A stretch of 64,000 nucleotides of DNA from Amycolatopsis endophytica (GTDB lineage: Bacteria; Actinomycetota; Actinomycetes; Mycobacteriales; Pseudonocardiaceae): the NCBI RefSeq assembly GCF_013410405.1, contig NZ_JACCFK010000001.1:2046001-2110000 (forward strand). The letters run 5' to 3'. The notes beneath the pieces are model-generated. The model searched no databases. It was not told the origin of the DNA and saw only the letters and a list, made by a program, of their open reading frames with translations. Both the position numbers and the translations under genes were made by a program. This document shows, piece by piece, positions 6,533-42,683 of the stretch; positions within the stretch are counted from its first letter, which is position 1; each line of letters opens with the position of its first letter.

Positions 6533-6801
6533 ACCCAGGCGCCCAGCGCGGGCTTGAACTCACGGACCGTGAACCCGTCGAGCGCGCCCTCGACGACGTA
6601 CGGGTCGGCGTCGAGGATCGCCTGCAACGCGTCGGCATCCTCGGCCTGGATGAGGATCGCGCCGCCGGTGTCGTCCGCGAACGGGCCTGCCACCGCGACC
6701 GTGCCGTCGGACGCGAGCTTCGAGAGGTACTCGCGGTGCCGCGGCCGCACGGCCCCGTACTTCTCCTGGTCGTAGACCGTCTGCACCAGGAACCAAGCCA
6801 T
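6526..6801 (-). CDS. YCII-related domain protein
   Basis: A 91-residue ferredoxin-like alpha/beta protein with the YciI hallmarks: FLVQTVYDQEKYGAVRP-type first strand and helix, HREYLSKLASDG, then GPFADDTGGAILI and a late DPYVVEGA. The family includes small dehydratase-like or binding proteins of mostly unknown substrate. The ATG at 6801 is chosen for the strong GGAGGTG a few bases upstream; an earlier in-frame start would lack one. The stop codon overlaps the end of the convergent PNPOx gene. Confidence 0.8.
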   Translation of the reverse strand: MAWFLVQTVYDQEKYGAVRPRHREYLSKLASDGTVAVAGPFADDTGGAILIQAEDADALQAILDADPYVVEGALDGFTVREFKPALGAWVQ

Positions 6802-6922
6802 TCGCGCACCTCCGGTTGAGTAGCTGTTCCGCACGCTACCGGGTGAAGTAGATCAACCGATACGCTGGTCCACGCGTGTACAGCACGTGGACATCGTTCG
6901 TGCCGAGGACAGGCGGGAGTAC

Positions 6923-7495
6923 ATGCCGGAGGGCAGCGCGGAGCGCAGCGTCGAACGCACGCTCGGCCATTTGCGCACCATGGACGGGGCCGGAACCGCG
7001 ACGGCCCAGCCTGCCGGGCCGCTGACCCTGGAGGATCTGTACAAGACCCACCGGATGCGGCTGGTCAGGCTGGCGATCCTGCTGGTCGACGAGCCGGCCA
7101 CAGCCGAGGACGTCGTGCAGGAAGCCTTCACCGGGCTCTACCGGAACTGGGGGAAGCTGCGGGACGCGACAGCCGCGGTCGCGTACCTGCGCACGGCCGT
7201 CGTCAACGGCTCACGCAGCGTGCTGCGGCGCCGCAAGACCGCCCGCGAGTACGTCCCGCCGCACGCGGTCAACGCCCGGTCGGCGGAGAGCCTGGCCATG
7301 TTGTCCAGCGAGCACCAGTCGGTGGTCAACGCCCTGTCGAAGCTCCCGCCGCGGCAACGTGAGGTACTCGTCCTGCGTTACTACGGCGGGCTCTCGGAGG
7401 CCGAGATCTCCGAGGTCGCGGGCATTTCCAAGGGCACGGTGAAGTCCACCGCGAGCCGCGCGCTGGAGGCTCTGCAGAAGGCCATGAGTGCCTAA
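6923..7495 (+). CDS. ECF/SigE-family RNA polymerase sigma factor
   Basis: Sigma region 2 is visible as LYKTHRMRLVRLAILLVDEP with AEDVVQEAF. Region 4 is visible as LPPRQREVLVLRYYGGLSEAEIS followed by the helix-turn-helix GISKGTVKSTASRA. At 190 residues it matches the SigE-type group-4 factors of actinomycetes. An N-terminal tail of about 35 residues precedes region 2, and the start could also be GTG 6887 or ATG 6980. No anti-sigma factor gene is adjacent, so control may be at transcription or by a distant partner. The stop lies directly against the DasR-like site of nagA. Confidence 0.85.
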   Translation: MPEGSAERSVERTLGHLRTMDGAGTATAQPAGPLTLEDLYKTHRMRLVRLAILLVDEPATAEDVVQEAFTGLYRNWGKLRDATAAVAYLRTAVVNGSRSVLRRRKTAREYVPPHAVNARSAESLAMLSSEHQSVVNALSKLPPRQREVLVLRYYGGLSEAEISEVAGISKGTVKSTASRALEALQKAMSA

Positions 7496-7497
7496 GC

Positions 7498-7509
7498 TGG
7501 TTTAGACCA
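7498..7509. promoter_or_regulatory. DasR-responsive element (dre-like) at nagA
   Basis: TGGTTTAGACCA at 7498-7509 matches the actinobacterial dre core TGGTCTAGACCA at 11 of 12 positions. It directly precedes a -10-like TATGCT (7511-7516) and the nagA start. DasR is a GntR-family repressor released by glucosamine-6-phosphate; nagA is a classical target in Streptomyces. The regulator is not in this window. Confidence 0.7.
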
Positions 7510-7523
7510 ATATGCTGGAGCCT

Positions 7524-8660
7524 GTGACGGGTTTCGTGCTGACGGGCGGCAGGCTGGCGCTCCCCGAGGGGCTGGTCGAGGACGGGTGGCTCGCGGTCTC
7601 CGGCGGGGCGATCGCGGGCATCGGCACCGGAACGCCACCGCCAGGCGACCGGATCGACGTCGGCGGCTCCTACGTGGTGCCCGGGTTCGTCGACGTGCAC
7701 TGCCACGGTGGCGGTGGCGGATCGTTCTCCAGCGGTGACGCGAAGGAGATCGCGACCGCGGTCAAGGCCCACCGCAGGCACGGCACCACGACGATGCTGG
7801 CGAGCCTGGTGTCCGATCCGGTCCGCACCCTGGTGGACCAGATGGCGGTGCTGCGCGAGCTGGTCGAGGACGACGAACTGGCGGGCATCCACCTGGAGGG
7901 CCCGTTCATCGCGTCGGCGCGCTGCGGCGCCCACGACCCGGCGGTCCTGCGCGAACCCGACACGGCGACCGTCGATGCCCTGCTGCGGGCCGGTCACGGC
8001 GCGGTGCGCATGGTCACGCTCGCGCCGGAGCTCAACGGCGGTGTCCGCGCGGTGCGGCAGCTCGCCGAGTCCGGTGTGATCGCGGCGATCGGGCACACCG
8101 ACGGGACCGAGGAGCAGATCCGGCCCGCCATCGACGCGGGCGCCACGGTCGCGACGCACCTGTTCAACGGCATGCGGCCGCTGCACCACCGCGAACCCGG
8201 CCCGATCGGCGTGCTGCTGGACGACGAGCGCGTCACGGTCGAGCTGATCTGCGACCTGGTCCACGTGCACCCCACGGTGCTGCGCCTGGCGGCCCGGTAC
8301 GCGGGCCGCGGCCGCACGACGCTCGTCACCGACGCCATGTCGGCCACCGACGCCGCCGACGGCCGCTACCACCTGGGCCGTCTCGAAGTCGACGTCCGCG
8401 ACGGGGTGGCGACGCTGGCCGACACCGGATCGCTGGCGGGCAGCACGCTGACCATGGACGCCGCGTTCCGCAACCTGGTCAAGGGCGCCGGCCTGCCGAT
8501 CCCCGACGCGGTCCGCGCCACCTCGGGACGCCCGGCCGAACTACTGGGCCTGCACGACCGGCTCGGCTCCCTGCGCACGGGCCTCGCGGCGGACCTGGTG
8601 GTGCTCGATGCCGACCTGCGCCCCGCCCGCGTCCTGCGCCACGGCACCTGGATCGCCTGA
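7524..8660 (+). CDS. nagA: N-acetylglucosamine-6-phosphate deacetylase
   Basis: An amidohydrolase-fold enzyme of 378 residues that hydrolyses GlcNAc-6-phosphate to glucosamine-6-phosphate and acetate. Visible motifs are the metal site GFVDVHCHGGGG, the substrate loop HLEGPF, GHTDGT and THLFNGM, and the late VTDAM catalytic Asp region. The GTG at 7524 lies seven bases after TATGCT, typical of a leaderless actinobacterial start; the ATG at 7512 would fall inside that -10 box. The dre-like site immediately upstream ties it to aminosugar control. A hairpin at 8698-8717 probably ends the transcript. Confidence 0.92.
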   Translation: MTGFVLTGGRLALPEGLVEDGWLAVSGGAIAGIGTGTPPPGDRIDVGGSYVVPGFVDVHCHGGGGGSFSSGDAKEIATAVKAHRRHGTTTMLASLVSDPVRTLVDQMAVLRELVEDDELAGIHLEGPFIASARCGAHDPAVLREPDTATVDALLRAGHGAVRMVTLAPELNGGVRAVRQLAESGVIAAIGHTDGTEEQIRPAIDAGATVATHLFNGMRPLHHREPGPIGVLLDDERVTVELICDLVHVHPTVLRLAARYAGRGRTTLVTDAMSATDAADGRYHLGRLEVDVRDGVATLADTGSLAGSTLTMDAAFRNLVKGAGLPIPDAVRATSGRPAELLGLHDRLGSLRTGLAADLVVLDADLRPARVLRHGTWIA

Positions 8661-8697
8661 CACGCTCCCCGTCGGCGAGTCCCCCTTCCCGCGGGCA

Positions 8698-8717
8698 GCC
8701 CGCCGTCTTCGGCGGGC
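8698..8717 (+). terminator. Terminator-like hairpin after nagA
   Basis: GCCCGCCG and CGGCGGGC form an 8-bp perfect stem around a 4-nt loop (tctt), 38 nt after the nagA stop. No long T-run follows, as is usual in high-GC actinomycetes. Confidence 0.55.
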
Positions 8718-8761
8718 GTTCCGCCTTCAGGCCTCCGGCGGCGCCGATTACGCTGGGCAGG

Positions 8762-9073
8762 GTGAGCGAGCCGACGGATCCGGAACGGCTGCTGGCCGAG
8801 GCGCTGCAGGCGCAGGCCCGCAGCGCGCCGCACCCCGGGCCGCCTCCTGGCGGGTGGCCGCAGTTCGGTCTGCTGTCCGGAGCCGACGCCAGCTCACTGG
8901 AACGTGAGCGCGCGGCCCTCGAACCCCCGGCCGGCCGTCGGCCCGGGCCGCCACCGATGCCGCGCCGGGCTGTTCCGCAGGCGCGTCACCTGCCGGTTCA
9001 CTGGGTCCTCGGCCTGGCCGCCCTGCTGGGTCTCGCGACGGGCGCGGTCATCGGTCTCATCACGCTCCTGTGA
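8762..9073 (+). CDS. Small proline-rich protein with one C-terminal membrane helix
   Basis: No known family was recognised. The 103 residues are a charged N-terminal helix (ERLLAEALQAQA), a Pro/Gly-rich linker and one C-terminal membrane segment (VLGLAALLGLATGAVIGLI), as in a tail-anchored protein with its body in the cytoplasm. The GTG start lies seven bases after TACGCT (8749-8754), consistent with a leaderless message. It is followed by the DedA gene after a 43-nt gap holding a palindrome. Confidence 0.6.
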   Translation: MSEPTDPERLLAEALQAQARSAPHPGPPPGGWPQFGLLSGADASSLERERAALEPPAGRRPGPPPMPRRAVPQARHLPVHWVLGLAALLGLATGAVIGLITLL

Positions 9074-9088
9074 GCCCACATAATGCAC

Positions 9089-9103
9089 ACAGGGTCACCC
9101 TGT
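9089..9103. promoter_or_regulatory. Palindrome at the DedA promoter
   Basis: ACAGGGT-C-ACCCTGT is a perfect 15-bp palindrome. Its right end touches a -10-like TACCGT (9103-9108), which lies eight bases before the GTG start at 9117. The position suits a repressor operator; the regulator is unknown. Confidence 0.4.
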
Positions 9104-9116
9104 ACCGTTTTGTGCT

Positions 9117-9824
9117 GTGATTCTCGCCGAGACCGCGACCACGCTCGCTCTGATGCCGAAGTGGTTCAACCCCGAGTACCTGCTGACCCAGTTCGGCGCG
9201 TACGTGATCGTCGGGCTGTGCCTGGTCATCTTCATCGAGAGCAGCATCTTCCCGGTGCTCCCCGGTGACTCGCTGCTGTTCACGGCGGGCCTGTTCGTGG
9301 CGCAGGGCTCGATCCAGACGCCGCTGTGGCTCGTGTGCACCCTGGTGACCGTCGCGGCGCTGCTGGGCAACGTCGTCGGTTACCTGATCGGGTGGAAGGC
9401 GGGGCCGGCGCTGTTCAAGCGGCCGGATTCGAAGTTCTTCAAACAGGAGTACGTCGACAAGACGCACGCGTTCCTGGAGAAGCACGGCCCGAAGGCCGTC
9501 GTGCTGGCGCGGTTCGTGCCCTTCGTGCGGACGTTCATCACCTGGATCGCCGGCATCGGCCGGATGGACCCGAAGAAGTACTTCACCTACACGGTCATCG
9601 GCGGCATCCTGTGGGCCGGCGGTATCACCGCGCTCGGTCACCTGCTCGGCAACATCTCGTTCATCAAGAACAACATCGAGGCCATCTTCATCCTGATCGT
9701 GCTGGTCTCGGTGGTGCCGATCGTCATCGAGTGGGCCAGGGCGCGGCGCGAGAAGAAGCACGCGGCGACCTCGGAGCCGTCGGACTCCGAGGTCACCCAG
9801 CAGATCCCGCGCATCGAGCGTTAG
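9117..9824 (+). CDS. DedA-family membrane protein (VTT/SNARE-associated domain)
   Basis: This 235-residue protein has the DedA hallmarks: an acidic/Gly loop FIESSIFPVLPGDSLLF, GNVVGYLIGW, and the second re-entrant loop ARFVPFVRTFITWIAGIGRM, followed by two C-terminal membrane helices and a charged cytoplasmic tail. DedA proteins are lipid or undecaprenyl-phosphate scramblases/flippases that need proton motive force and maintain envelope homeostasis. The GTG at 9117 is probably leaderless. The stop overlaps the convergent GlcD-like gene by 4 nt. A second DedA gene occurs at 15541. Confidence 0.88.
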   Translation: MILAETATTLALMPKWFNPEYLLTQFGAYVIVGLCLVIFIESSIFPVLPGDSLLFTAGLFVAQGSIQTPLWLVCTLVTVAALLGNVVGYLIGWKAGPALFKRPDSKFFKQEYVDKTHAFLEKHGPKAVVLARFVPFVRTFITWIAGIGRMDPKKYFTYTVIGGILWAGGITALGHLLGNISFIKNNIEAIFILIVLVSVVPIVIEWARARREKKHAATSEPSDSEVTQQIPRIER

Positions 9825-11212
9825 GTCATCGAGAACATCGACCCCGGGTTGAACAGGTTCCCGGGGTCGAGGGCCTGCTTGATCTGCCGGTGCACGCGCA
9901 GGCCCACCGGCCCGATCTCACGCTCCAGCCACTCCTTCTTGATCTTGCCGACGCCGTGCTCGCCGGTGACCGTGCCGCCGAGGGACAGGCCGACGTCGAG
10001 GATCGCGTCGAACGCCTTGCGTGCACGGGTGAACTCGTCCTCGTTGTCGGGCTGGTAGACGATCGTGGGGTGCATGTTGCCGTCGCCGGCGTGCCCGACC
10101 ACGGCGATGCGCAGCCCGACGTCGTCGCTGATCCGCTGGCAGCCGGCGATCAGCTCGGCGATGCGCGTGCGCGGCACCGACACGTCGTCGGTCAGCCACA
10201 CGCCGTACTGCTCCAGCGCGGTCAGCACCACCCGGCGGGCCTGCATGAGCATGCGGCCCTCGGCCAGGTCGTCCGTCGCGTACGTCATCGTCGCGCCCGA
10301 GTCCTGGCAGATCTGCTCCAGCGCGGCCAGTTCGCGCCGCGCGGCCTCGCCGCCCGAGTCGGACTGGCACAGCAGGAGCGCCTGGCAGTCGGAGCCCGCG
10401 CCGAGGTCGGTGTTCAGGTACGTTTCGGCCGCCTTGATGGAGCTGGCGTCCATGATCTCCATCAGTGAGGGCACCAGGCCCTCGCGCACGGTGCGCGCCA
10501 CCGCGGTGCCGGCCGCCTCGGTGGTGTCGAACCCGGCGACGAGCGTGCCGGGCGCCTGGGGAAGTGGTCGCAGTGCCACGGTGGCCTGGGTGATCACGCC
10601 GAGTGTGCCCTCGCTGCCGACGAACAGCCGCGCCAGGTCGTACCCGGCGACGCCCTTCACGGTGCGGCGGCCGGTCCTCAGGATCGACCCGTCGGCCAGG
10701 ACGACTTCCAGGCCCAGCACCGAGTCGGTGGTGACGCCGTACTTCACGCAGCACAGCCCGCCCGCGTTGGTGGAGAGGTTGCCGCCGATCGTGCACCAGT
10801 CGTAGCTGGACGGGTCCGGCGGGTAGAACAGCCCGTGCTTCTCCACCGCGTCACGGAACTCGAGGTTGACGACGCCCGGCTGCACCACCGCGAGCCGGTT
10901 GCCCGCGTCGACCTCGACGATCTGGTTCAGCTTGGTCATCACGAGGACGACACACCCGTCGATGGCGTTCGCGGCACCGGACAGCCCGCTGCCCGCCCCG
11001 CGCGGCACGATCGGCACCCCCGCCTCCGCGCACGCGCGGACCACCGCCTGGACGCCCTCGACGTCCGAGGGCAGCACCACCGCCAACGGACGGCCCGAAG
11101 GTGCCAGCGGCATCATGTCGCGGGAGTAGCTGCCGGTGACGTCCGCATCCGTCAGAACAGCGTCCTTGCCCAGGTCGGCGCGCAGTTTCGTCAGCAAAGC
11201 GTCGGTGCTCAT
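9821..11212 (-). CDS. FAD-linked oxidase, glycolate oxidase GlcD / D-lactate dehydrogenase family
   Basis: A 463-residue vanillyl-alcohol-oxidase-fold flavoprotein. The PCMH FAD-binding region is clear (PRGAGSGLSGAANA and GGNLSTNAGGLCCVKYG), and the C-terminal cap ends with VVGHAGDGNMHPT and GTVTGEHGVG. Enzymes of this family oxidise glycolate, D-lactate or other 2-hydroxyacids and pass electrons to the quinone pool. No glcE or glcF subunits are adjacent, so a single-subunit D-lactate dehydrogenase is at least as likely. A 24-bp palindrome lies 29 nt before the ATG. Confidence 0.87.
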   Translation of the reverse strand: MSTDALLTKLRADLGKDAVLTDADVTGSYSRDMMPLAPSGRPLAVVLPSDVEGVQAVVRACAEAGVPIVPRGAGSGLSGAANAIDGCVVLVMTKLNQIVEVDAGNRLAVVQPGVVNLEFRDAVEKHGLFYPPDPSSYDWCTIGGNLSTNAGGLCCVKYGVTTDSVLGLEVVLADGSILRTGRRTVKGVAGYDLARLFVGSEGTLGVITQATVALRPLPQAPGTLVAGFDTTEAAGTAVARTVREGLVPSLMEIMDASSIKAAETYLNTDLGAGSDCQALLLCQSDSGGEAARRELAALEQICQDSGATMTYATDDLAEGRMLMQARRVVLTALEQYGVWLTDDVSVPRTRIAELIAGCQRISDDVGLRIAVVGHAGDGNMHPTIVYQPDNEDEFTRARKAFDAILDVGLSLGGTVTGEHGVGKIKKEWLEREIGPVGLRVHRQIKQALDPGNLFNPGSMFSMT

Positions 11213-11305: not shown

Positions 11306-11406
11306 AGTTGCCTGTGGCAACTAAAGTGTCATCGGCCACACGGCCGGTTATTTGAGTGGCGCAACCAACTAGTCCAGGTGCATCCTTGACCAGGGCAACT
11401 AGTTGC
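11306..11406. promoter_or_regulatory. Promoter/operator region of the MarR-exporter-YceI operon
   Basis: Two palindromes share the half-site GCAACT/AGTTGC: AGTTGCC-tgt-GGCAACT at 11306-11322 and GCAACT-AGTTGC at 11395-11406. A related CAACCAACTAG lies between them at 11362-11372. A -35-like TTGACC (11386-11391) is placed so that the second palindrome fills the promoter spacer; the -10 is not clear. This is a typical arrangement for MarR autorepression. Confidence 0.6.
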
Positions 11407-11448
11407 TTCGGTCAATTAAGACATCCCGTACGAAGAGAGTGATCCGGC

Positions 11449-11973
11449 ATGCCATCTCCCGTCGAGGAAGCGGCCTTCACGGACACCGAGCTCGACATCG
11501 CCGATGAGCTGGGTGTTCAGCTCGTCCGCTTCATGCGGCTGCTCACCAAGGCGAAGTCGCAGGTGGCGAAGCTGGGGCCGGACGGTATCGAGCGCGCCGC
11601 GTACGCCATTCTCTTCCAGCTCATCCACGACGGGCCCCAGCGCACGAGCAAGCTCGCCGAGGCGCTGCACGCCGAGATCTCCACCATCAGCAGGCAGAGC
11701 AGCTCACTGGTGCAGCACGGCCTGGTCGAGCGGCTGGCCGATCCGGAGGACGGGCGGGCCTGCTTGCTGGCCCCGACGACGGAGGGGATGCGGGTGTTCG
11801 AAGAGAACCGCAGGCAACGCAACCGCTGGCTGGCCGAAGTGCTGGCCGAATGGCCGGAGGACGAACGCCGCGTCCTGAACAAGCTCCTGGACCGGCTCAA
11901 CACGGGGATCGAGCACCACGCTCCACAACTCGCCGATCAGGTTTCGGCGCGCAGCAAGGGGGACGACGCATGA
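11449..11973 (+). CDS. MarR-family transcriptional regulator
   Basis: A 174-residue winged-helix regulator. The core includes AYAILFQLIHDGPQRTSKLAEALHAE, a recognition helix with ISTISRQSSSLVQHGLVER and a wing with DPEDGRACLLAPT, then a long dimerisation helix ending WPEDERRVLNKLLDRL. MarR proteins are ligand-released repressors, often of drug exporters. The stop overlaps the exporter start (ATGA), and two AGTTGC-type palindromes lie upstream, so autoregulation and control of the exporter are inferred. The ligand is unknown. Confidence 0.9.
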   Translation: MPSPVEEAAFTDTELDIADELGVQLVRFMRLLTKAKSQVAKLGPDGIERAAYAILFQLIHDGPQRTSKLAEALHAEISTISRQSSSLVQHGLVERLADPEDGRACLLAPTTEGMRVFEENRRQRNRWLAEVLAEWPEDERRVLNKLLDRLNTGIEHHAPQLADQVSARSKGDDA

Positions 11974-14609
11974 CACGCTCCACACGAGAACAACCGGTGC
12001 CCGCGGGGGGCGCCGTCGCGGACGAGGGCCCACGCCTCACGCACAAACAGATCCTGACCATCCTCAGCGGACTCCTGCTGGGGATGTTCCTGGCGGCGCT
12101 GGACCAGAACATCGTCAGCGTCGCGATCGTCAAGATCGCCAACGACCTGCACGGCTTCGACCAGCAGGCGTGGGCCACCACGGCCTACCTGATCACCGCG
12201 ACCATCGCGACGCCGCTGTACGGCAAGCTGTCCGACATCTACGGGCGCAAGCCGTTCTACCTGACCGCGATCGCGTTGTTCGTCGTCGGCTCCGCGGCCT
12301 GCACGTTCGCCACCTCGATGTACGAGCTGGCCGCGTTCCGGGCCTTCCAGGGCCTGGGCGCCGGTGGTCTGATGTCGCTCGCCATGACCATCATCGGTGA
12401 CGTGGTGCCCGCCCGCGAACGGGTGAAGTACCAGGGCTACTTCATGATGGTCTTCGGCAGCGCGACCGTTCTCGGCCCGGTGCTCGGTGGCCTGTTCTCC
12501 GACTTCGAGAGCCTGGGCGGCCTCGACGGGTGGCGCTGGATCTTCCTGATCAACGTCCCGATCGGTGTCCTCGCGCTCGCGGTCGTGGCGAAGGTGCTGA
12601 ACGTGCCGCACCAGCGGCAGGACCACCGCATCGACTGGTTCGGCGCGGTCTCGCTGGCCATCGCGGTGGTGCCGTTGCTCCTGGTCGCCGAGCAGGGACG
12701 CACCTGGGGCTGGGGTTCGACCACCGCGGTGATCTGCTACGCCGTCGCCGCCTTCGGTGTCGTGCTCTTCCTCTTCGTCGAGTACGTGATGAAGGACGAG
12801 GCGCTGATCCCGCTGCGGCTGTTCCGCAACTCGACGTTCAGCGTCGCGATCGGCGGCGGCACGCTGGTCGGTATCGGCATGTTCGGCTCGATCAGCATGA
12901 TCCCGCTGTACTTCCAGGTCGTGCGCGGCTACACGCCGACCCAGGCCGGCCTGCTGATGCTGCCGCTCGTGCTGGGCATCATGACCGGTTCGCAGATCTC
13001 GGGCCGGATCACCGCGAAGACCGGGCGCTACAAGATCCTGCCGGTCGTCGGCACGGTCCTGATCGCCATCGGCGCGGCGCTGTACGCGCAGGTGCACTAC
13101 AACAGCCCGCTGTGGCAGCCGCTGGTCATCGCCCTGCTCATCGGCCTCGGCCTCGGTGGGTGCATGCAGACGCTGATCATCGCCGCGCAGAACGCCGGCC
13201 CGCGCCGCGACATGGGTGTGTCGACCGCGTCGGCCACGTTCTTCCGCCAGATGGGCGGCACCCTGGGTGTCGCGGTCTTCCTGACCATCCTGTTCAACCT
13301 GCTGCCGGGCAAGATCGCCGACGCGTTCGGCGGCAACCTGCCCCCCGGCTTCGACCAGAGCCAGCTGGGTGCGCTGCAGGCCGACACCAGCAGCCTGCAC
13401 AACCTGCCCGACGCGGTGCAGATCCCGATCCTGACCGGGTTCACCAACTCGATGCACGGTGTCTTCTACGTGGCCGGTGCCGTGGCGTTGCTCGCCTCGA
13501 TCGTGCTGGCGTTCATGAAGGAGATCCCGCTGGCAGGAGGTCCGGCCCAGCCCGCGCCGCAGTCCGACCCGGTCGGTGAGGCGCTGCTGCCGGACGAGAA
13601 CGCGAAGACCGGTGCGGACGCGGACACCTGGGCGGACGCGGACGCCGCGTTCGAGGAGGACCGCGAACCCGTGCTGGTCGGAACAGGGAGGCATTCCTTG
13701 AGTGACAACAACGGGCACGGCGAGTACCAGCTCGCCGCGCAGGCCGCGCCGATCACGAACGCGGTCGCGAGCGCCGGGACGGACAACGCGCTCGGCACCG
13801 GTGGCCAGCCCGTCACCGGCACCATCCGCCGTCAGGACGGCACGGCCGTCGGCGGCGCCGCGCTGACCCTCATCGACCAGCGGGGCCGCCAGGTCTCGCG
13901 GGCGACCGGCAGCGCCGACGGCGGTTACTCGATCGGCGCACCGGGCAACGGCGCGTACGTGCTGATCGTGTCGGCGGCAGGGCACCAGCCGCAGGCGGCC
14001 AGCGTGGTCGTCGGCGACGGGCCGTCGCGCCTGGACCTGACGCTCGTCGGCTCGGGCGAGCTGAGCGGTGTCGTCCGGGTGGCGGGCGCGGGCTCCCCGC
14101 TGGCCGGCGCCACCGTGACGCTGACCGACTCGCGTGGCGAGGTCACCGGGGCCGCGATCAGCGACGCCCAGGGCGCGTACCTGTTCAACGGCGTCAGCTC
14201 CGGCACCTACACGCTGGTGGCCAGCGCCGACCGGATGCGCCCGGTCGCGTCGCTGATCACCGTGCCGGACAGTGGCGTGCTGCAGCAGGACGTCGAGATC
14301 GCGCCCGCCGTGCTGCTGGCCGGCACCGCCCGCACCGACGGCGGACGCCCGGTGCCGGACGCGCGGATCACGGTCCTGGACACCGAGGGCAACGTCGCCG
14401 CGGTCGCCCGGACGGACGAGAACGGCCAGTACGTCGTCAGCGATCTGCCCGAGGGTGACTACACGGTGGTCGCCAGCGGGTACCCGCCGGCGACGAGCCA
14501 GGTGAACCTGCCGGGTGGCGGCGACGTCAGCCACGACGTCCGGCTGGGCTACGAGCAGGTGCTCGACCAGCTGGGCGACCCGGCGAGCAACGGGGTGGAG
14601 CAGTCATGA
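11970..14609 (+). CDS. DHA2-family MFS exporter fused to three carboxypeptidase-regulatory-like domains
   Basis: An 879-residue protein. Residues 1-516 are a 14-helix drug:H+ antiporter of the EmrB/QacA type, with motif A visible as GKLSDIYGRKPFY and motif C as GSATVLGPVLGG. After an acidic linker (about 517-610) come three beta-sandwich repeats (about 614-865), each with the pattern GxVxxxxGxPVxxAxVTLxDxxG...TxxxGxYxxxxLxxGxYTLxxSAxG. Normal DHA2 exporters end near residue 520. DHA2 C-termini face the cytoplasm, so these normally extracellular-type domains would be intracellular. It overlaps MarR (ATGA) and the YceI gene (ATGA). An internal AGGGAGG plus TTG at 13685-13700 could start a domain-only product. 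The substrate is unknown. Confidence 0.9.
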   Translation: MTRSTREQPVPAGGAVADEGPRLTHKQILTILSGLLLGMFLAALDQNIVSVAIVKIANDLHGFDQQAWATTAYLITATIATPLYGKLSDIYGRKPFYLTAIALFVVGSAACTFATSMYELAAFRAFQGLGAGGLMSLAMTIIGDVVPARERVKYQGYFMMVFGSATVLGPVLGGLFSDFESLGGLDGWRWIFLINVPIGVLALAVVAKVLNVPHQRQDHRIDWFGAVSLAIAVVPLLLVAEQGRTWGWGSTTAVICYAVAAFGVVLFLFVEYVMKDEALIPLRLFRNSTFSVAIGGGTLVGIGMFGSISMIPLYFQVVRGYTPTQAGLLMLPLVLGIMTGSQISGRITAKTGRYKILPVVGTVLIAIGAALYAQVHYNSPLWQPLVIALLIGLGLGGCMQTLIIAAQNAGPRRDMGVSTASATFFRQMGGTLGVAVFLTILFNLLPGKIADAFGGNLPPGFDQSQLGALQADTSSLHNLPDAVQIPILTGFTNSMHGVFYVAGAVALLASIVLAFMKEIPLAGGPAQPAPQSDPVGEALLPDENAKTGADADTWADADAAFEEDREPVLVGTGRHSLSDNNGHGEYQLAAQAAPITNAVASAGTDNALGTGGQPVTGTIRRQDGTAVGGAALTLIDQRGRQVSRATGSADGGYSIGAPGNGAYVLIVSAAGHQPQAASVVVGDGPSRLDLTLVGSGELSGVVRVAGAGSPLAGATVTLTDSRGEVTGAAISDAQGAYLFNGVSSGTYTLVASADRMRPVASLITVPDSGVLQQDVEIAPAVLLAGTARTDGGRPVPDARITVLDTEGNVAAVARTDENGQYVVSDLPEGDYTVVASGYPPATSQVNLPGGGDVSHDVRLGYEQVLDQLGDPASNGVEQS
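13685..13700 (+). promoter_or_regulatory. Internal ribosome-binding site and in-frame TTG start inside the exporter gene
   Basis: AGGGAGG at 13685-13691 lies six bases before an in-frame TTG (13698-13700, codon 577), just where the membrane part and linker end and the beta-sandwich part begins (next residues SDNNGHG). This is a near-ideal start signal within a gene. It suggests either internal initiation of a soluble domain protein or the relic of a gene fusion. Confidence 0.45.
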
Positions 14610-15427
14610 GCGGATTGCGCGCGCAGATCCGCACGGCCGAGGGCTGGGCGGTGGAGAACGCGGTGCTGACCGTGACGGACATGAGCGGCCAGCAGGTCGC
14701 CCGTGCCGTCGCGGACGCCACGGGGGCGGTGGCCACGCCGCCGCTGACCCCGGGCATCTACACCGCGGTCCTCACCGCCGCCGGGCACGCGCCGGTGGCC
14801 CGCACCGCGCAGATCGGGTCCGACGGGTCGGGTTCGCTCGGCGACCTGGTGGTGACGCCGATGGCCGGTGCCGTCGAGCTGCCGCCCGCGGGTCCGTGGA
14901 CGATCGACCCGGTGCACTCGACCGCGGTCGCGACCGCGCGGCACCTGGGCATCGCGAGCATCAAGGCCCGGTTCTCCGAGATCAGCGGGCGCATCGACAT
15001 CGCCCGCCCGGCGGAGCAGTCGCGGGTCGAGGCCGAGATCAAGGCCGCGAGCATCGACACCGGCATCAAGATGCGCGACGACAACCTGCGCTCGCCGGAG
15101 TTCCTGGACGTGGAGTCGTACCCGGTGATCGGGTTCGTCAGCACCGGGATGCGACAGCGTGGCACGGACACCTGGGTGCTGGCAGGCGAGCTGACGTTGC
15201 ACGGTGAGCGTAAGTCGATCGAGATGGACCTGACCTACGGCGGCTACGGGCCGGATCCGTGGGGCGGGGTGCGTGCGGCGTTCCACGCCGAAACCCAGCT
15301 GCACCGCAACGATTTCGCGATCAACTACAGCGCGATGGTGCGTGCCGGGGTCGCCGCGATCGGGTCCAACGTCAAGATCGAACTCGACATCGAGGCTGTT
15401 CAGGGCGAGTCTCTGCCCCAGATGTGA
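14606..15427 (+). CDS. YceI-family protein with N-terminal carboxypeptidase-regulatory-like domain
   Basis: In this 273-residue protein, residues about 2-85 form one beta-sandwich module (AVLTVTDMSGQQVARAVAD...PGIYTAVLTAAGHAPV) closely resembling those of the preceding exporter. Residues about 94-265 form a YceI lipocalin-like barrel (WTIDPVHSTAVATARHLGI, then FLDVESYPVIGF and GELTLHG). YceI proteins bind long polyisoprenoid or other lipid molecules. No signal peptide is visible, unlike many Gram-negative YceI proteins, so a cytoplasmic location is inferred. The ATGA overlap with the exporter implies co-translation and possible interaction through the shared module. Confidence 0.87.
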   Translation: MSGLRAQIRTAEGWAVENAVLTVTDMSGQQVARAVADATGAVATPPLTPGIYTAVLTAAGHAPVARTAQIGSDGSGSLGDLVVTPMAGAVELPPAGPWTIDPVHSTAVATARHLGIASIKARFSEISGRIDIARPAEQSRVEAEIKAASIDTGIKMRDDNLRSPEFLDVESYPVIGFVSTGMRQRGTDTWVLAGELTLHGERKSIEMDLTYGGYGPDPWGGVRAAFHAETQLHRNDFAINYSAMVRAGVAAIGSNVKIELDIEAVQGESLPQM

Positions 15428-15430
15428 CCA

Positions 15431-15473
15431 GGAACACGGCCGCACATTTTTCGCGAATGTGCGGCCGTGTTCC
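15431..15473 (+). terminator. Terminator hairpin of the MarR-exporter-YceI operon
   Basis: A perfect 16-bp inverted repeat (left arm 15431-15446 beginning GGAACACGG, right arm 15458-15473 ending CCGTGTTCC) surrounds an 11-nt loop, three bases after the YceI stop. Confidence 0.75.
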
Positions 15474-15540
15474 GTAACGGATCACCTAAATTCGACCGAT
15501 CGGCTGACTGGTGGTTGAGTGCGGCACGTACGCTCTCCGG

Positions 15541-16224
15541 GTGACTTTCGACTTCGCCGCGTCCGAAGCCGTCGGCGTGGGCTGGTTGGACACGGCCGGC
15601 CCGCTGCTGGTCTGGGTCATCGTGCTCAGTTTCGTGTTCATCGAGTGCGCCCTGATCATCGGGCTGTTCCTGCCCGGTGATTCGCTGCTGTTCGCGGCCG
15701 GAGTCGTCCTTGCCTCACACGGCGCGCACGCCAGTGCCTGGCTGCTGTCGATCGCGGCGCTCGTCGTCGCGGTGGTGGGCAACCAGGTCGGCTACTACAT
15801 CGGGCAGCAGACCGGGGTCCGGTTCATCGCCCGGCGCGGCGGCAAGGTCCTGAACAGGCACAACCTCGAACGGGCGCGGGAGTTCCTCGACCGCAAGGGC
15901 TTCTTCGCGATCGTCGCCGCACGCTGGATCCCGTGGATCCGCACCCTCGCGCCGCTGATCGCCGGGGCCGCCCGCATGGACTCCCGGCGCTTCCTCCTCG
16001 CCACCACGATCGGCGGCGTGTTCTGGGTGCCGACGCTGGTGCTGATCGGCTACTACGGCGCCGGTCTGCTCGACGCGATCCCGTGGGTCAAGACCGTGCT
16101 GGTCTGGTTGTCGATCGCGTTCTTCGTGATCGGCACCGGGTACGGTTTCGTCCGGTACCGGCAGGAGATGCGCCGCCCCGTCGACGAGGACCCGCCCGAG
16201 CAGGAGTACCGCACCGCGGCGTAG
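15541..16224 (+). CDS. DedA-family membrane protein (second copy)
   Basis: A 227-residue DedA protein with FIECALIIGLFLPGDSLLFAAG, GNQVGYYIGQQTG, and AARWIPWIRTLAPLIAGAARM as the second re-entrant loop. It is only distantly similar to the copy at 9117. Probable role: phospholipid or undecaprenyl-phosphate scrambling in the cytoplasmic membrane. The GTG at 15541 is preferred because TACGCT (15529-15534) lies six bases before it, as in leaderless genes; an in-frame GTG at 15511 would put that box inside the coding region. Confidence 0.86.
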   Translation: MTFDFAASEAVGVGWLDTAGPLLVWVIVLSFVFIECALIIGLFLPGDSLLFAAGVVLASHGAHASAWLLSIAALVVAVVGNQVGYYIGQQTGVRFIARRGGKVLNRHNLERAREFLDRKGFFAIVAARWIPWIRTLAPLIAGAARMDSRRFLLATTIGGVFWVPTLVLIGYYGAGLLDAIPWVKTVLVWLSIAFFVIGTGYGFVRYRQEMRRPVDEDPPEQEYRTAA

Positions 16225-37021: not shown

Positions 37022-39628
37022 TTAGTCCGCCCGGGTGACCACGAGCGTGTCGCCCGCATCCAGTTCGGGCACGTCCACGCGCACTGTGTCACCGTCCCGG
37101 ACCTCACCGGCCAGCAGCTGCTTCGCCAGCTGGTCACCGATCGCCGACTGCACCAGACGGCGCAGCGGCCGGGCACCGTAGATCGGGTCGAACCCGTTCA
37201 GCGCGAGCCACTCGCGGGCACCAGGGGTGACCTCCAGCGACAGCCGCCGCTGGGCCAGCCGGTCCGCCAGCTTCGCCACCTGGATGTCCACAATGGACGT
37301 GAGTTGTTCGGTGCCGAGCGCGTCGAACACCACGATGTCGTCCAGCCGGTTCAGGAACTCCGGCTTGAAGTGCCGCTGCACCGTCGACAGCACCGCGTCC
37401 CGCCGCTGGCGCTCGTCGAGCGAGGCGTCCGCGATGGCCTGCGAACCGAGATTCGAGGTCAGGATCAGGATCGTGTTGCGGAAGTCGACCGTGCGGCCCT
37501 GGCCGTCGGTCAGGCGCCCGTCGTCGAAGACCTGCAGCAGCACATCGAACACGTCCGGGTGCGCCTTCTCGACCTCGTCCAGCAGGACCACCGAGTACGG
37601 GCGCCGCCGGACGGACTCGGTGAGCTGTCCGCCCTGGTCGTAGCCGACGTACCCGGGCGGCGCGCCCACCAGCCGCGCCACGCTGTGCTTCTCGCTGTAC
37701 TCGCTCATGTCGATGCGGGTCATCGCGCGCTCGTCGTCGAACAGGAACTCCGCCAGCGCCTTGGCCAGCTCGGTCTTGCCGACCCCGGTCGGTCCGAGGA
37801 ACAGGAACGAACCGGTCGGCCGGTCCGGGTCCGCGACACCGGCACGCGTGCGCCGCACCGCGTCGGACACCGCCGCCACCGCCTCGCGCTGGCCGACGAC
37901 GCGCCTGCCCAGCTCCTCCTCCATCCGGAGCAGCTTGCCGGTCTCGCCTTCGAGCAGGCGGCCTGCCGGGATGCCGGTCCAGGCGCTCACCACGTCGGCC
38001 ACGTCGTCGCTGCCGACCTCCTCCTTGAGCATGACCTCGGCCCCGGACGAACTGTTCGCCGTGTTCTGCTGCGCCTCCTCCAGCTCCTTCTCCAGCGCCG
38101 GGATGCGGCCGTAGCGCAGCTCGGCGGCGCGGCCCAGGTCGGCGTCGCGCTCGGCCCGATCGGCCTCGCCCCGCAGCTGCTCCAGCTGCTCCTTGAACTC
38201 GCGGACCTTCTCGATCGAGCCCTTCTCGTTCTGCCAGCGCGCGGTCAGCGCCGACAGCTCCTCGCGCTTCTCCGCGAGTTCGGCGCGCAACGCGGCCAGC
38301 CGTTCCAGTGAAGCGGCGTCGTTCTCCTTGGCGAGCGCCATCTCCTCGATCTCCAGACGCCGCACGGCGCGCTCGACCTCGTCGATCTCGACGGGACGGG
38401 AGTCGATCTCCATGCGCAGCCGGGACGCGGCCTCGTCGACCAGGTCGATCGCCTTGTCCGGCAGGAACCGGGCGGTGATGTAGCGGTCGGACAGCGTGGC
38501 GGCCGACACCAGCGCGGCGTCGGTGATGCGGACACCGTGGTGCACCTCGTAGCGCTCCTTGAGGCCACGCAGGATGCCGATGGTGTCCTCCACCGACGGC
38601 TCGCCGACCAGCACCTGCTGGAAGCGCCGCTCCAGCGCGGCGTCCTTCTCGATGTGCTGGCGGTACTCGTCGAGCGTGGTCGCGCCGACCATGCGCAGCT
38701 CACCGCGGGCGAGCATCGGTTTGATCATGTTGCCGGCGTCCATCGCCCCGCCTTCGCCGGACGCTCCCGCCCCGACGATGGTGTGCAGCTCGTCGATGAA
38801 CGTGATGACCTGGCCCGCCGATTCGGTGATCTCCTTGAGCACGGCCTTGAGCCGCTCCTCGAACTCACCGCGGTACTTCGCGCCGGCCACCATCGAACCC
38901 AGGTCCAGCGCCACGACCCGCTTGCCGCGCAACGACTCCGGCACGTCACCGGCCACCACCCGCTGCGCCAGCCCTTCGACGATCGCTGTCTTGCCGACGC
39001 CCGGCTCACCGATCAGCACGGGGTTGTTCTTCGTCCGCCGCGACAGCACCTGGACCACGCGGCGGATCTCCGCGTCGCGGCCGATCACCGGGTCCAGCTC
39101 GCCCTTGCGGGCGCGGTCGGTCAGGTCGACGCCGTACTTCTCCAGCGCCTTGAACGTGCCCTCCGGATCCGGACTGGTGATCCGCGCCGAGCCGCGCACC
39201 CGGGTGAACGCCTCACGCAGCGCGTCCGGCGTCGCGCCGTGGCGCTTGAGCAGGTCGGCCACCTGCCCGCCCTCCGCCGCGAGGCCCACCATCAGGTGTT
39301 CGGTGGAGACGTACTCGTCACCCAGTTCGGTCGCGAGCTTCTGGGCGTGCGTCAGCGATTTGACGGCGGGCGGATCGAACTGCGGCGTGGACACGGTCGC
39401 GCCGGTCGCCGCCGGCAGCGCCTGCGTGATCGGCTCCAGCTCCTTGTGCACCTGCGCCGGGTCGGCGCCCACCGCCGTCAGCAGGGGCCCGGCCAGGCCG
39501 TCACCCTGCGCCAGCAGCGCGCCGAGCAGGTGCGCGGCGGTGACAGCGGGGTTGCCCGCCACGGTCGCCGCCTGCGCCGCCGACGAAATCGCCTGCTGGG
39601 TCTTCGTCGTCGGGTTGAAAGCGTCCAT
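37022..39628 (-). CDS. clpB: ATP-dependent disaggregase ClpB
   Basis: 868 residues: Clp N-domain ([17 protein letters not shown]...), first AAA with GEPGVGKT, a coiled-coil middle domain (about residues 400-525), second AAA with GPTGVGKTE and the Walker [13 protein letters not shown]. It threads aggregated proteins through its central pore and works with DnaK-DnaJ-GrpE, encoded 8 kb away. The ATG at 39628 is set by GGAG six bases upstream and by the conserved [13 protein letters not shown] start. A HAIR site lies 71 nt upstream, so it is HspR-controlled. Confidence 0.96.
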
Positions 39629-39698
39629 CCCACACTCCATGTCGCATGCCTGCCGGAGACCTTCCTCCAGGTCCCTCGACATCTACAACGTCAACAAA

Positions 39699-39786: not shown

Positions 39787-42117
39787 TCAGCGAGCCGGGT
39801 GCGTCAGCTCCACATCGCGGGACAGCGGGGTGCCCGCGGTGACCTCGAGCGGAGTCGCCACCGGGGCGTATCCGCTGGTCACGATCGTGTAGTCGCCCGC
39901 GGGGAGGTCGGTGAAGGAATACCGGCCCTCCTCGTCGGTCAGCGTCGTCGCGACCACCTCGCCCGCCGGGTCCAGCAGCGTCACCTGGGCTTCGGCGACC
40001 GGCCGGTCGTAGCGCCCTGCCCGCACGACCCCGCCGAGGCGTGCGGTGAGCCCGAGCTCGACATCGTGGGTGGAGTGCTCGCCCTCGGTCGTCACCAGCG
40101 GCGTCGCCGACGGCTGATGTCCCGGCGCGGTCACGGTCAGGGTGTGGACCCCGCCGGTCACGTCGTCGAAGTGGTACCAGCCGTCGCCACCGGTGACGCC
40201 CGACGCGACCACCTCGCCGCGGTCGTCGGTCAGCACGAGCGTCGCGCCGCCGACCGGCTGCCCGCCGGAGGACCGCACCACGCCGCTGAGACCGCCGTTG
40301 CCCGCCATCTCGACGTCCCGCCGGACCGGACGGCCGTTGACCGTGACCAGCGTGGCGACCGGCTGGAACCGGGCGGCCGAGGTGATCAGCACGTAGCTGT
40401 CGTTCGGCGGGGCCGTCAACTGGTAGCCGCCGTCGGCGCCGGTGAGCACCCTCGACACCTGCTGCCCGGACGCGTCGGTGAGCGTCAGCGCCGCACCGGC
40501 CAACGGACGGCCCGAGGGACCGGTGACCGTGCCGTGGATCGCCGAACCGGTGACCACCGGCTCGGCCGCGGCCACGGACGGCGCCTCGTCGTCGGTCAGG
40601 TCGAGCGTCCGGCGCAGCGGCACCTCCTTGATGAACAGCACCGCGATCAGCGTGACCACCGCGATGATGCCGCCCGCCAAGAACACCGCGCCGATGCTGT
40701 CGCCGTACGCGGCGCGCACGATCGACTGGAACGGCTCGGGCAGCGCGCCCAGGTTCAGGCTGCCGCCACTGGCGCCCCCCGCGGCCGCCGGGTCGATGCC
40801 CATCGCCGACAGCGAACTCGCCACGTGGCTGCTGACCTGCGCCGCGAGCAGGGCGCCCAGCGCCGAGACACCGGCCGAACCACCCAGCGTGCGGAAGAAC
40901 GTCACCACCGACGACGAGGACCCCATGTCCTTCATCGCGACGGTGTTCTGCACGACCAGCACCAGGTTCTGCATCAGCGCGCCGACCCCGATGCCCAGCA
41001 TCGCCAGGTAGACGCCCATCAGCACCAGGTTGGTCTGGTGGTCGATGGTGCTCAGCAGGAACAGGCTCGCGACCAGCAGGACCGCGCCGCCGACCATCCA
41101 CGGCTTCGTCTTGCCCGTGCGGGAGATGAACTGCCCGGCGATGGTCGAGGACAGGAACAGGCCGAGCATCATCGGGATCGTCATCAGCCCGGCGTGCGTG
41201 GGCGAGTAGCCGCGGGCGAGCTGGTAGTACTGCCCGAGGAACACGGCGCCACCGAACATCGCGGTGCCGACGGCCAGCGTGCCGACCACCGACAGCGTGA
41301 AGGTGCGGTTGCGGAACAGCCGCAGCGGGACCACCGGGTCCGCGACCTTCGATTCGACGAACACCGCCAGCGCCAGCGCGATCACGCCGCCTGCCACGTA
41401 GAACAGGGTCGACCAGGACCACCAGGCGAAGCTGCCGCCCGCCAGCGAGACCCAGATCAGCAGCAGCGAGACACCGCCGACGAGCAGGGTCGCACCCAGC
41501 CAGTCGATCTTCACCTTCTGCTTGAACACCGGCAGGTGCAGGGTCTTGCCGAGGACGATGAACGCGAGCACCGCGATCGGCACGGTGACCCAGAAGTTCC
41601 AGCGCCAGCCCAGCGGCGAATCGACGATCACGCCACCCAGCAGCGGACCCGCGACGGTCGCCAGCGCCATGACGGCGCCGATGTAACCGGTGTAGCGGCC
41701 GCGGTCACGCGGCGAGATCATGGCCGCGATCACGACCTGGACCAGCGCCTGCATGCCACCGAGGCCGAGGCCCTGGACCGCGCGGAACGCGATCAGCTCG
41801 GGCATGGACTGCGAGATGCCGCCCAGCACCGAGCCGAGCGTGAAGATCACGATCGACAGCTGGTAGAGCATCTTCTTGCTGAACAGGTCCGACAGCTTCC
41901 CCCAGATCGGGGTGCTCGCCGTGGACGCCAGGAGGGTGGCCGTGACCACCCACGTGTACTGACTCTGCGAGCCGTCGAGGTCGGCCAGGATCGTCGGGAG
42001 CGCGTTCGAGACGATCGTGGAGGACAGCATGGCGACCAGCAGCGCCAGGAGGAGGCCGATGAACGCGCGCCCGACCTGGCGCGGCGTCATCGCCTCCTGG
42101 TTCGCTGTCGTGCTCAC
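39787..42117 (-). CDS. DHA2-family MFS exporter fused to three carboxypeptidase-regulatory-like domains (second copy)
   Basis: 776 residues. Residues about 1-515 are a 14-helix exporter ([13 protein letters not shown] motif [21 protein letters not shown]). From about 541 to 776 there are three beta-sandwich modules ([39 protein letters not shown] and [18 protein letters not shown]), each closing with a GxYxF or GxYTI strand. The layout equals that of the exporter at 11970, but the sequence is clearly diverged, so they are paralogues rather than a recent copy. The GTG overlaps the MarR stop (GTGA). No YceI partner is present here. Confidence 0.9.
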
Positions 42118-42620
42118 TTGCGAAATCCCTTCCTCTTCTCCGCCGTTTCCGGCGGGCAGGTGACCGGTGTGTGCCCGAGGGCCTCACGCAGTCCTTGGTT
42201 CATCAGGGTCAACCGGGCGGTGAGGGCTTCGACCTCGTCGTCCGTCCAGTCCGACAGGGCGCGCCGCACGAAGTCGGCGTGCATCACCCGCCACTGCTCG
42301 AGCTGGTCGCGGCCGGCCTCGGTGAGGCGGATCAGGCTGGCCCGCCCGTCCTCCGGTGCGGGCCTGCGCTCGACCAGGCCCGCCGTGACCAGCTGACCGA
42401 GCTGCCTGCTGATCACCGAGATGTCGACCATCTTGCGTTTGGCCAGTTCGGACGGTCTGCTCTCGCCGTGCTGGGCGAGATCGGACAGCAGCATGGCGGC
42501 CGCGGGGTGCTGGCCGCCGTGTTCGCGTTGCCAGGACTGGTTGATCCAGGCGTGCTGGAGCTGGCCCGCGGTGCGCAGTTCGCGCATCAGCTGGACGGCC
42601 CGCTCGTCGTGGTCCCCCAT
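42114..42620 (-). CDS. MarR-family transcriptional regulator
   Basis: 168 residues. Winged helix with AAAMLLSDLAQHGESRPSELAKRKMVDISVISRQLGQLVTAGLVER and wing PEDGRASLIRLT. The ATG at 42620 has GGAGGTGGG upstream. It heads the exporter operon (GTGA overlap) and its promoter contains three ACAACTA-type half-sites, so it probably represses itself and the exporter until a ligand binds. Confidence 0.9.
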   Translation of the reverse strand: MGDHDERAVQLMRELRTAGQLQHAWINQSWQREHGGQHPAAAMLLSDLAQHGESRPSELAKRKMVDISVISRQLGQLVTAGLVERRPAPEDGRASLIRLTEAGRDQLEQWRVMHADFVRRALSDWTDDEVEALTARLTLMNQGLREALGHTPVTCPPETAEKRKGFRK

Positions 42621-42646
42621 GGACCCACCTCCTGGTTGGTTGTCAC

Positions 42647-42683
42647 ATACAACTATAGATCCGGTAGTTGTATGCCACAACTA
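42647..42683 (-). promoter_or_regulatory. Promoter and operator of the second MarR-exporter operon
   Basis: On the minus strand -35 TTGTGG (42680-42675) and -10 TATAGT (42657-42652) are 17 bp apart. The inverted repeat ATACAACTA (42647-42655) / TAGTTGTAT (42665-42673) overlaps the -10 and fills most of the spacer; a third half-site ACAACTA lies at 42677-42683 over the -35. This is a textbook repressor-covered promoter. Confidence 0.72.

Follow-up and report, generated by a model that had tools for sequence, protein, structure and literature searches.

Why would a lipocalin-like protein with no evident signal peptide be encoded directly behind a DHA2-type exporter, and why would the two share a beta-sandwich module? 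This question is raised by a three-gene operon of Amycolatopsis endophytica, found in a stretch of 64,000 nucleotides (contig NZ_JACCFK010000001.1, positions 2,046,001 to 2,110,000), the whole of which is called the window here. An original prediction, made from the DNA letters, held that the modules form a cytoplasmic docking stack through which the YceI protein hands a lipid-like ligand to the exporter. Gene order and coordinates came out as predicted, with the MarR, exporter and YceI genes joined by 4-nt ATGA overlaps at both junctions (MarR/exporter and exporter/YceI). In window coordinates, the features are as follows.

11306-11322, unstranded: palindrome AGTTGCCTGTGGCAACT with perfect 7-bp arms and a 3-nt loop, candidate MarR operator 1
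11395-11406, unstranded: palindrome GCAACTAGTTGC, candidate MarR operator 2, with a core CAACTAGTTG that is conserved upstream of MarR
11449-11973, plus strand: MarR-family regulator, 174 aa (PF01047, 50.3 bits, cut-off 24.6)
11970-14609, plus strand: DHA2 (EmrB-type) 14-helix exporter with a C-terminal module tail, 879 aa (PF07690, TIGR00711, AlphaFold2)
13539-13799, plus strand: flexible linker of the exporter, residues 524-610 (87 residues, pLDDT <50)
13803-14546, plus strand: three CarboxypepD_reg beta sandwiches, exporter residues 612-859 (PF13620, AlphaFold2 strands)
14606-15427, plus strand: CarboxypepD_reg-YceI (CarbD-YceI) protein, 273 aa (PF04264, AlphaFold2, Foldseek)
15431-15473, unstranded: terminator-like hairpin with perfect 18-bp arms and no T run after it

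The stretch first noted, 11306-15473, thus runs from the first base of the AGTTGCCTGTGGCAACT palindrome to the last base of the 18-bp stem. Known RNA elements were absent at gathering scores between 8500 and 17000. When 25 loci were compared with the window, a palindrome the same as or similar to AGTTGCCTGTGGCAACT was found in four (L035, L038, L054 and L068). Of 54 loci that have this type of MarR, 53 carry the shorter CAACTAGTTG upstream of the MarR gene, as against none of 13 loci with another MarR, and 35 of the 54 keep the full 12-mer GCAACTAGTTGC there. The core CAACTAGTTG occurs 59 times in 1.26 Mb of compared loci and once in the window. By this distribution, the CAACTAGTTG palindrome is likely to be the operator of this MarR. 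DedA/VTT-domain genes are present on both sides of the operon (9117-9824 and 15511-16224).

By profile and helix count, the exporter is a member of the DHA2 (EmrB/QacA) group of the major facilitator superfamily (MFS). It matches MFS_1 (PF07690) with 186.9 bits and the EmrB-type DHA2 model TIGR00711 with 257 bits (cut-off 230.2), and the AlphaFold2 model (62-row alignment, mean pLDDT 78.9) has 14 membrane-helix segments spanning residues 25-514. In NCBIfam, the core scores best with the models of two drug pumps, OtrB and Tcr3, in both cases below the cut-off. Solved relatives of the core, found by sequence and by fold (the latter with Foldseek), include EmrB, EfpA, QacA and the Rv1410 homologue 8pnl. 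Behind the core, residues 524-610 are modelled with low confidence, as a disordered linker, and are followed by sandwiches at about 612-692, 696-777 and 781-859; CarboxypepD_reg (PF13620) matches in three stretches with 137.5 bits, over the curated cut-off. Pfam, NCBIfam and AlphaFold2 therefore agree on the predicted 14-helix DHA2 protein with three C-terminal modules. Inside the linker, GGGAGG is followed by an in-frame TTG (13686-13700). This TTG (13698-13700) was considered as the start of a free tail and set aside, as the arrangement is present only in the closest relatives (L035-L037) among those compared.

Lysine and arginine number 23 in the inner loops of the exporter and 5 in the outer loops, and no strongly hydrophobic segment follows helix 14; the tail is therefore predicted to be cytoplasmic. 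The 14-helix model, with both ends predicted in the cytoplasm, and the 23 to 5 charge distribution uphold, at the level of a prediction, the earlier placement of the modules on the cytoplasmic side.

The third protein is a YceI lipocalin, with a YceI domain (PF04264, 135 bits, cut-off 23.7) at residues 98-264 and a lipocalin-like barrel. In its AlphaFold2 model (pLDDT 90.4), the barrel matches the folds of 1wub (E 5.9e-17), BcnA (5ixh), 5ixg and 7bwl. An N-terminal module had also been predicted. PF13620 scores 29.4 bits there, slightly under its cut-off of 32.3, but the modelled N-terminal sandwich is similar in fold to a transthyretin-like domain, that of carboxypeptidase D (5aq0, Foldseek E 1.9e-3). 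In line with the original prediction, a signal peptide is not evident from N-terminal hydrophobicity and the model: the top hydrophobic 19-mer has a mean of 1.06, the protein has zero cysteines, and its N-terminus enters a strand at once without a hydrophobic lead. A second CarbD-YceI protein, 35-36% identical, is encoded apart from tailed exporters and near what is presumably gyrA in the source genome (L002/L115, 5584-6972, minus strand); it also occurs in a relative (L166), where the N-terminal module scores 36.1 bits with PF13620. At L158 (4989-5926, minus strand), module and YceI domain lie in separate frames, either as a broken gene or through a sequencing error.

Within the source genome, the module is found well beyond this pair. 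Four more MFS exporters have CarboxypepD_reg tails, and no YceI gene was found in the stretches around any of them. These loci are listed here, together with the regulator of the first.

Window 39787-42117, minus strand: second tailed DHA2 exporter with three CarboxypepD_reg domains, without YceI beside it
Window 42114-42680, minus strand: MarR of the second tailed exporter, with a 4-nt overlap with it
C1:4417331-4419922: tailed MFS exporter with another three-module frame behind it
C2:1518032-1519777: tailed MFS exporter overlapping a free three-module protein
C2:1565821-1567713: tailed MFS exporter

The operon of the second tailed exporter adjoins a gene that we take to be ClpB-like (37022-39682). 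At L117 (4033-6548) and L116 (about 6559-9923), module-tailed MFS exporters are directly followed by another frame, which encodes three CarboxypepD_reg modules and has no evident signal peptide. The source genome also encodes an ABC2-type membrane protein with one C-terminal CarboxypepD_reg domain (L118, 5394-6743), and two DUF1275-like proteins of L154 (1955-3031 and 3115-4191) apparently have such a module at the C-terminus; in one of them, DUF1275 scores over its cut-off and the module, at 23.2 bits, below. The module is thus found on exporters that lack a YceI neighbour, on ABC2-type and apparently DUF1275 proteins, and on free proteins, and is therefore not dedicated to YceI. It is a wider actinobacterial theme.

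The tail and the YceI protein nevertheless form a conserved pair. Loss of the gene pair in relatives had been set beforehand as one of the observations that would refute the original prediction, and the pair proved to be kept. In a protein-based scan of named genomes, in which the best 80 of 137 relatives were compared, a tail lies directly upstream of YceI in 74 of 80 loci, with a gap of at most 321 nt; in three of these (L061, L077 and L108) the contig ends within the locus, so that the tail is visible without the core. Exporter and YceI genes overlap by 4 nt in 55 of the 74 and by 1 nt in 12. YceI has no adjoining tail in the other six loci (L074, L082, L085, L086, L088 and L089). Given the order in 74 of 80 loci and the overlap in 55 of 74, the arrangement is not due to chance.

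Across 348 genomes of the order, with at most 7 candidates scored per genome, the YceI protein was found in 47 (51 matches at E <=1e-50, of which the G632 match begins only at residue 66). In the source genus, 19 of 19 genomes searched have the protein. For 41 of the 51 matches, a tail on the same strand lies no more than 600 nt upstream, the widest gap being 383; the other 10 lack an adjoining tail. A tail (E <=1e-25) is present in 47/47 genomes with YceI and in 20/301 others, a co-occurrence with a Fisher p of about 1e-42 when kinship between genomes is ignored. Among 296 genomes from the whole phylum, 10 have a match that starts at query residue 1-3 with at least 51% identity. Four weaker copies, one of them in the source genome, begin at residue 13-24 (35-40%), and the regions of three of these (L179-L181) contain no tailed exporter. 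Eight of the 10 genomes come from one group (f5/g8), and in all eight regions MarR, tailed exporter and CarbD-YceI follow in this order. One f5/g8 exporter is identical to a Streptomyces griseoviridis protein across the searched tail region, so f5/g8 is probably Streptomyces. The tail-YceI pair is thus present at least in Amycolatopsis, Nocardia, Gandjariella, Streptomyces and the families f75 and f84.

Beyond what the original prediction covered, the pump between MarR and tail can differ while tail and YceI stay the same. In 12 Nocardia loci, identity to the window is 34-37% for the core and 31-35% for MarR, as against 59-64% for the tail and 64-70% for YceI. We compared 10 such exchanged loci with 19 normal Nocardia loci, leaving out L083 and L087, in which the extrapolated start hit a stop, and found identities of 36.1% (33-38) for the core, 66.4% (59-73) for the tail and 72.2% (67-76) for YceI. 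When Amycolatopsis is set against normal Nocardia, the core is instead the most alike of the three (71.8%), ahead of YceI (64.9%) and tail (59.3%). The exchanged core is nearest another DHA2 lineage, with 54% identity to the second tailed exporter of the window and 59% to L163, whereas the tails of that lineage are only 40-46% like those of the exchanged loci. The candidate operator CAACTAGTTG is absent upstream in the exchanged Nocardia loci.

Phylogenetic trees, which were quick, included part of the rows and have some long branches, point the same way. For the core, one Nocardia clade is rejected (p 2.8e-7), as is a clade that unites Amycolatopsis and Nocardia to the exclusion of the outside rows (p 0.03). 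In the YceI tree, all Nocardia group together (99), and the grouping of the core is rejected (p 0.014). The tail tree also unites all Nocardia (support 94), but there the core grouping is not firmly rejected (p 0.061), so the tail evidence by itself is suggestive. The simplest account would be a recombination between core and tail that swapped MarR and pump and left tail and YceI in place.

Tail and YceI also occur without any pump. In L167, MarR overlaps by 4 nt with a free three-module protein, which is followed by CarbD-YceI, and no exporter core was found across 11 kb. A free three-module protein also adjoins CarbD-YceI in L153 and L154, with no tailed exporter beside it, L154 having an untailed MFS gene on the opposite strand (3-1886); L151 and L152 combine exporter, free three-module protein and CarbD-YceI at one locus. 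The free proteins of L167, L153 and L117 have three CarboxypepD_reg domains over the Pfam cut-off, and the free three-module relatives, judged by eye, begin without an evident signal peptide. As the same tail and YceI come with a different core or with none, they make up a unit that is partly independent of the pump. Core exchange in Nocardia and the free-tail loci thus strengthen the earlier view that tail and YceI belong together.

CarbD-YceI stands alone, away from the exporter, in the six Nocardia-type loci named above and in L169. In five genomes with such a lone YceI in Nocardia and in G520 (the genome of L085 was left out), a tail of 60-62% identity is present elsewhere in 6/6, on a core of the exchanged type. 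In four genomes of genus g201, CarbD-YceI has no linked tail, and tails elsewhere are 41-43% and 34% identical; in L161, from this genus, MarR lies 128 nt before YceI. Among the best 120 of 453 matches to a joined query, no protein was found in which exporter tail and YceI are naturally fused. A 1527-aa frame in L156 that ends in YceI was rejected as a fusion, as the stretch before CarbD-YceI looks by eye mostly like a chance open frame.

We tentatively favor the interpretation, to which we give somewhat less than an even chance, that the operon serves detoxification or lipid export under MarR control and that its YceI lipocalin, soluble in the cytoplasm, cooperates with the tail on the inner side of the DHA2 pump. 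As the modules are predicted to lie in the cytoplasm, both partners have such a module, and tail and YceI keep together, the most likely mechanism would be capture, docking and export. A hydrophobic compound that enters or is formed in the cell would relieve MarR repression at the CAACTAGTTG sites, and the YceI barrel would bind this compound, be it an antibiotic, a quinone, an isoprenoid or another lipid. The single CarboxypepD_reg domain of the YceI protein would dock on the three-domain tail, which, on its 87-residue flexible linker, could keep YceI with its ligand close to the cytoplasmic side of the pump, and the DHA2 core would expel the delivered compound. The tail would then serve to tether a cytoplasmic carrier and could be passed from one pump core to another. 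The pairing of tail and YceI is well supported by the comparisons and docking is plausible; the ligand and its hand-off to the pump we infer. Several observations speak against this interpretation: the four tailed exporters of the source genome without a YceI neighbor, the tail-bearing genomes without a CarbD-YceI match (20 of 67), the 10 of 51 YceI matches away from a tail, the distant tails in g201, the tail tree with its p of 0.061, and the lack of a fusion among the best 120 of 453 matches.

The main rival to the docking model, which we consider somewhat unlikely, is that the parts are co-regulated but independent. YceI would be a cytoplasmic sink for a drug or quinone, the pump would work alone, and the shared module would reflect domain recruitment within the MarR regulon. 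Such a role would agree with the sequestration by which BcnA-type lipocalins protect, according to the available part of PMC5350466, with the 20 of 67 tail-bearing genomes that have no CarbD-YceI match at E 1e-50, and with a YceI that sometimes lies away from the exporter. It leaves unexplained, however, why tail and YceI remain constant under differing MarR and core, and why they occur without a core in L167 and L153.

It is unlikely, though conceivable, that the modules are general cytoplasmic assembly units for homo- or hetero-oligomerization and that YceI, as one client, brings lipid or quinone protection to the membrane instead of delivering cargo. The modules on other DHA2-like exporters, on ABC2-type and apparently DUF1275 proteins, and the free three-module proteins adjoining exporters fit this reading. 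In the exchanged Nocardia loci, however, tail and YceI both group with their counterparts from the remaining Amycolatopsis and Nocardia loci, in conflict with the core, and the partnership therefore looks specific there.

We regard it as improbable, with a probability that overlaps that of the docking model because docking is compatible with it, that the substrate is not a drug but an endogenous membrane lipid or polyisoprenoid, with YceI as its cytoplasmic donor or acceptor in a mirror image of Rv1410-LprG. The fold of the core, like that of EfpA (solved with lipids) and of the Rv1410 homologue, would suit this, as would the octaprenyl pyrophosphate or ubiquinone carried by YceI relatives in the available parts of PMC5350466 and PMC9113575, and the two DedA genes flanking the operon. 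On the other side, MarR control fits a xenobiotic, and the best two NCBIfam matches of the core, though below cut-off, are the drug pumps OtrB and Tcr3. The DedA neighbors were rejected as a pointer to a polyisoprenoid as substrate: of the two, the one downstream occurs in 36/36 Amycolatopsis loci and 0/41 Nocardia loci, and therefore probably reflects local synteny.

CarboxypepD_reg-type beta sandwiches are usually extracellular, and the solved, sequence-matched relatives of the tail include the surface proteins 10ps and 6fwv and NOMO2 (9c7v), which we take to be a lumenal protein, but the 14 helices, the positive-inside distribution and the free three-module relatives make a location outside the cell very improbable here.

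Single MFS pumps are generally regarded as drawing their substrates from the membrane or cytosol without help, and the known pump partner proteins (EmrA, LprG) work outside the membrane. A conserved cytoplasmic carrier tied to a pump, if real, would change the view of how MFS pumps are supplied with substrate, give unsecreted actinobacterial YceI proteins a role, and help explain why the module recurs on actinobacterial membrane proteins. It is possible, if doubtful, that Actinobacteria possess an efflux system fed from inside, by a cytoplasmic lipocalin that captures a hydrophobic toxin or lipid and docks through a shared module on an exchangeable tail of DHA2 pumps, with tail and lipocalin as a transferable front end to more than one core or to none. 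The host genera include antibiotic producers (Amycolatopsis, Streptomyces), for which self-protection and product export matter.

Among the closest described arrangements is that of Rv1410 and LprG. In the part of PMC10576003 available to us, the DHA2-type Rv1410 is proposed to extract lipid and then pass it to LprG in triacylglyceride export, and LprG is a periplasmic lipoprotein that receives the lipid after export, with strong specific binding not reported. Both operons combine a DHA2-type MFS transporter with a partner protein; LprG binds hydrophobic ligands, and such binding is expected here from the YceI family. Unlike LprG, however, the partner described here is predicted to be cytoplasmic, is built on a YceI barrel and has a module in common with its transporter; with no cysteine and no evident signal sequence, it is not a periplasmic lipoprotein.

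The barrel itself resembles BcnA and BcnB, to judge by the fold matches 5ixh, 5ixg and 7bwl. According to the accessible parts of these sources, BcnA/BcnB-type relatives bind hydrophobic antibiotics and were crystallized with octaprenyl pyrophosphate (PMC5350466), and a Neisseria YceI contained ubiquinone-8 (PMC9113575). The lipocalins of the BcnA/BcnB and LcoA-BcnA systems are described there as secreted or anchored on the outside, and a cytochrome b561 is their partner. In contrast, the protein studied here lacks an evident signal peptide, begins with a CarboxypepD_reg domain and is paired with an exporter; no cytochrome b561 gene is linked to it, the neighbors being the MarR/DHA2 operon and a DedA gene.

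Two further systems share single traits. SCO4121 of Streptomyces coelicolor is likewise a MarR-controlled MFS pump for several drugs, as described in the available parts of PMC11944582 and PMC11632069, which mention no YceI partner; SCO4122 was not found in the accessible part of PMC7157823. Actinobacterial YceI genes linked to the sulfonamide monooxygenase gene sadA likewise tie YceI to antibiotic handling, but neither an exporter nor a CarboxypepD_reg tail is mentioned in the part of PMC6868719 at hand. The searched literature, which mostly did not include subscription papers, described no system of this layout, in line with the original prediction. All parts belong to known families, and what appears new from the sequences is their arrangement, in which a lipocalin predicted in the cytoplasm is connected, through a module that both partners have, with a pump whose core can be exchanged; if the hand-off were shown, the novelty would extend beyond that of a transporter with a ligand-binding partner.
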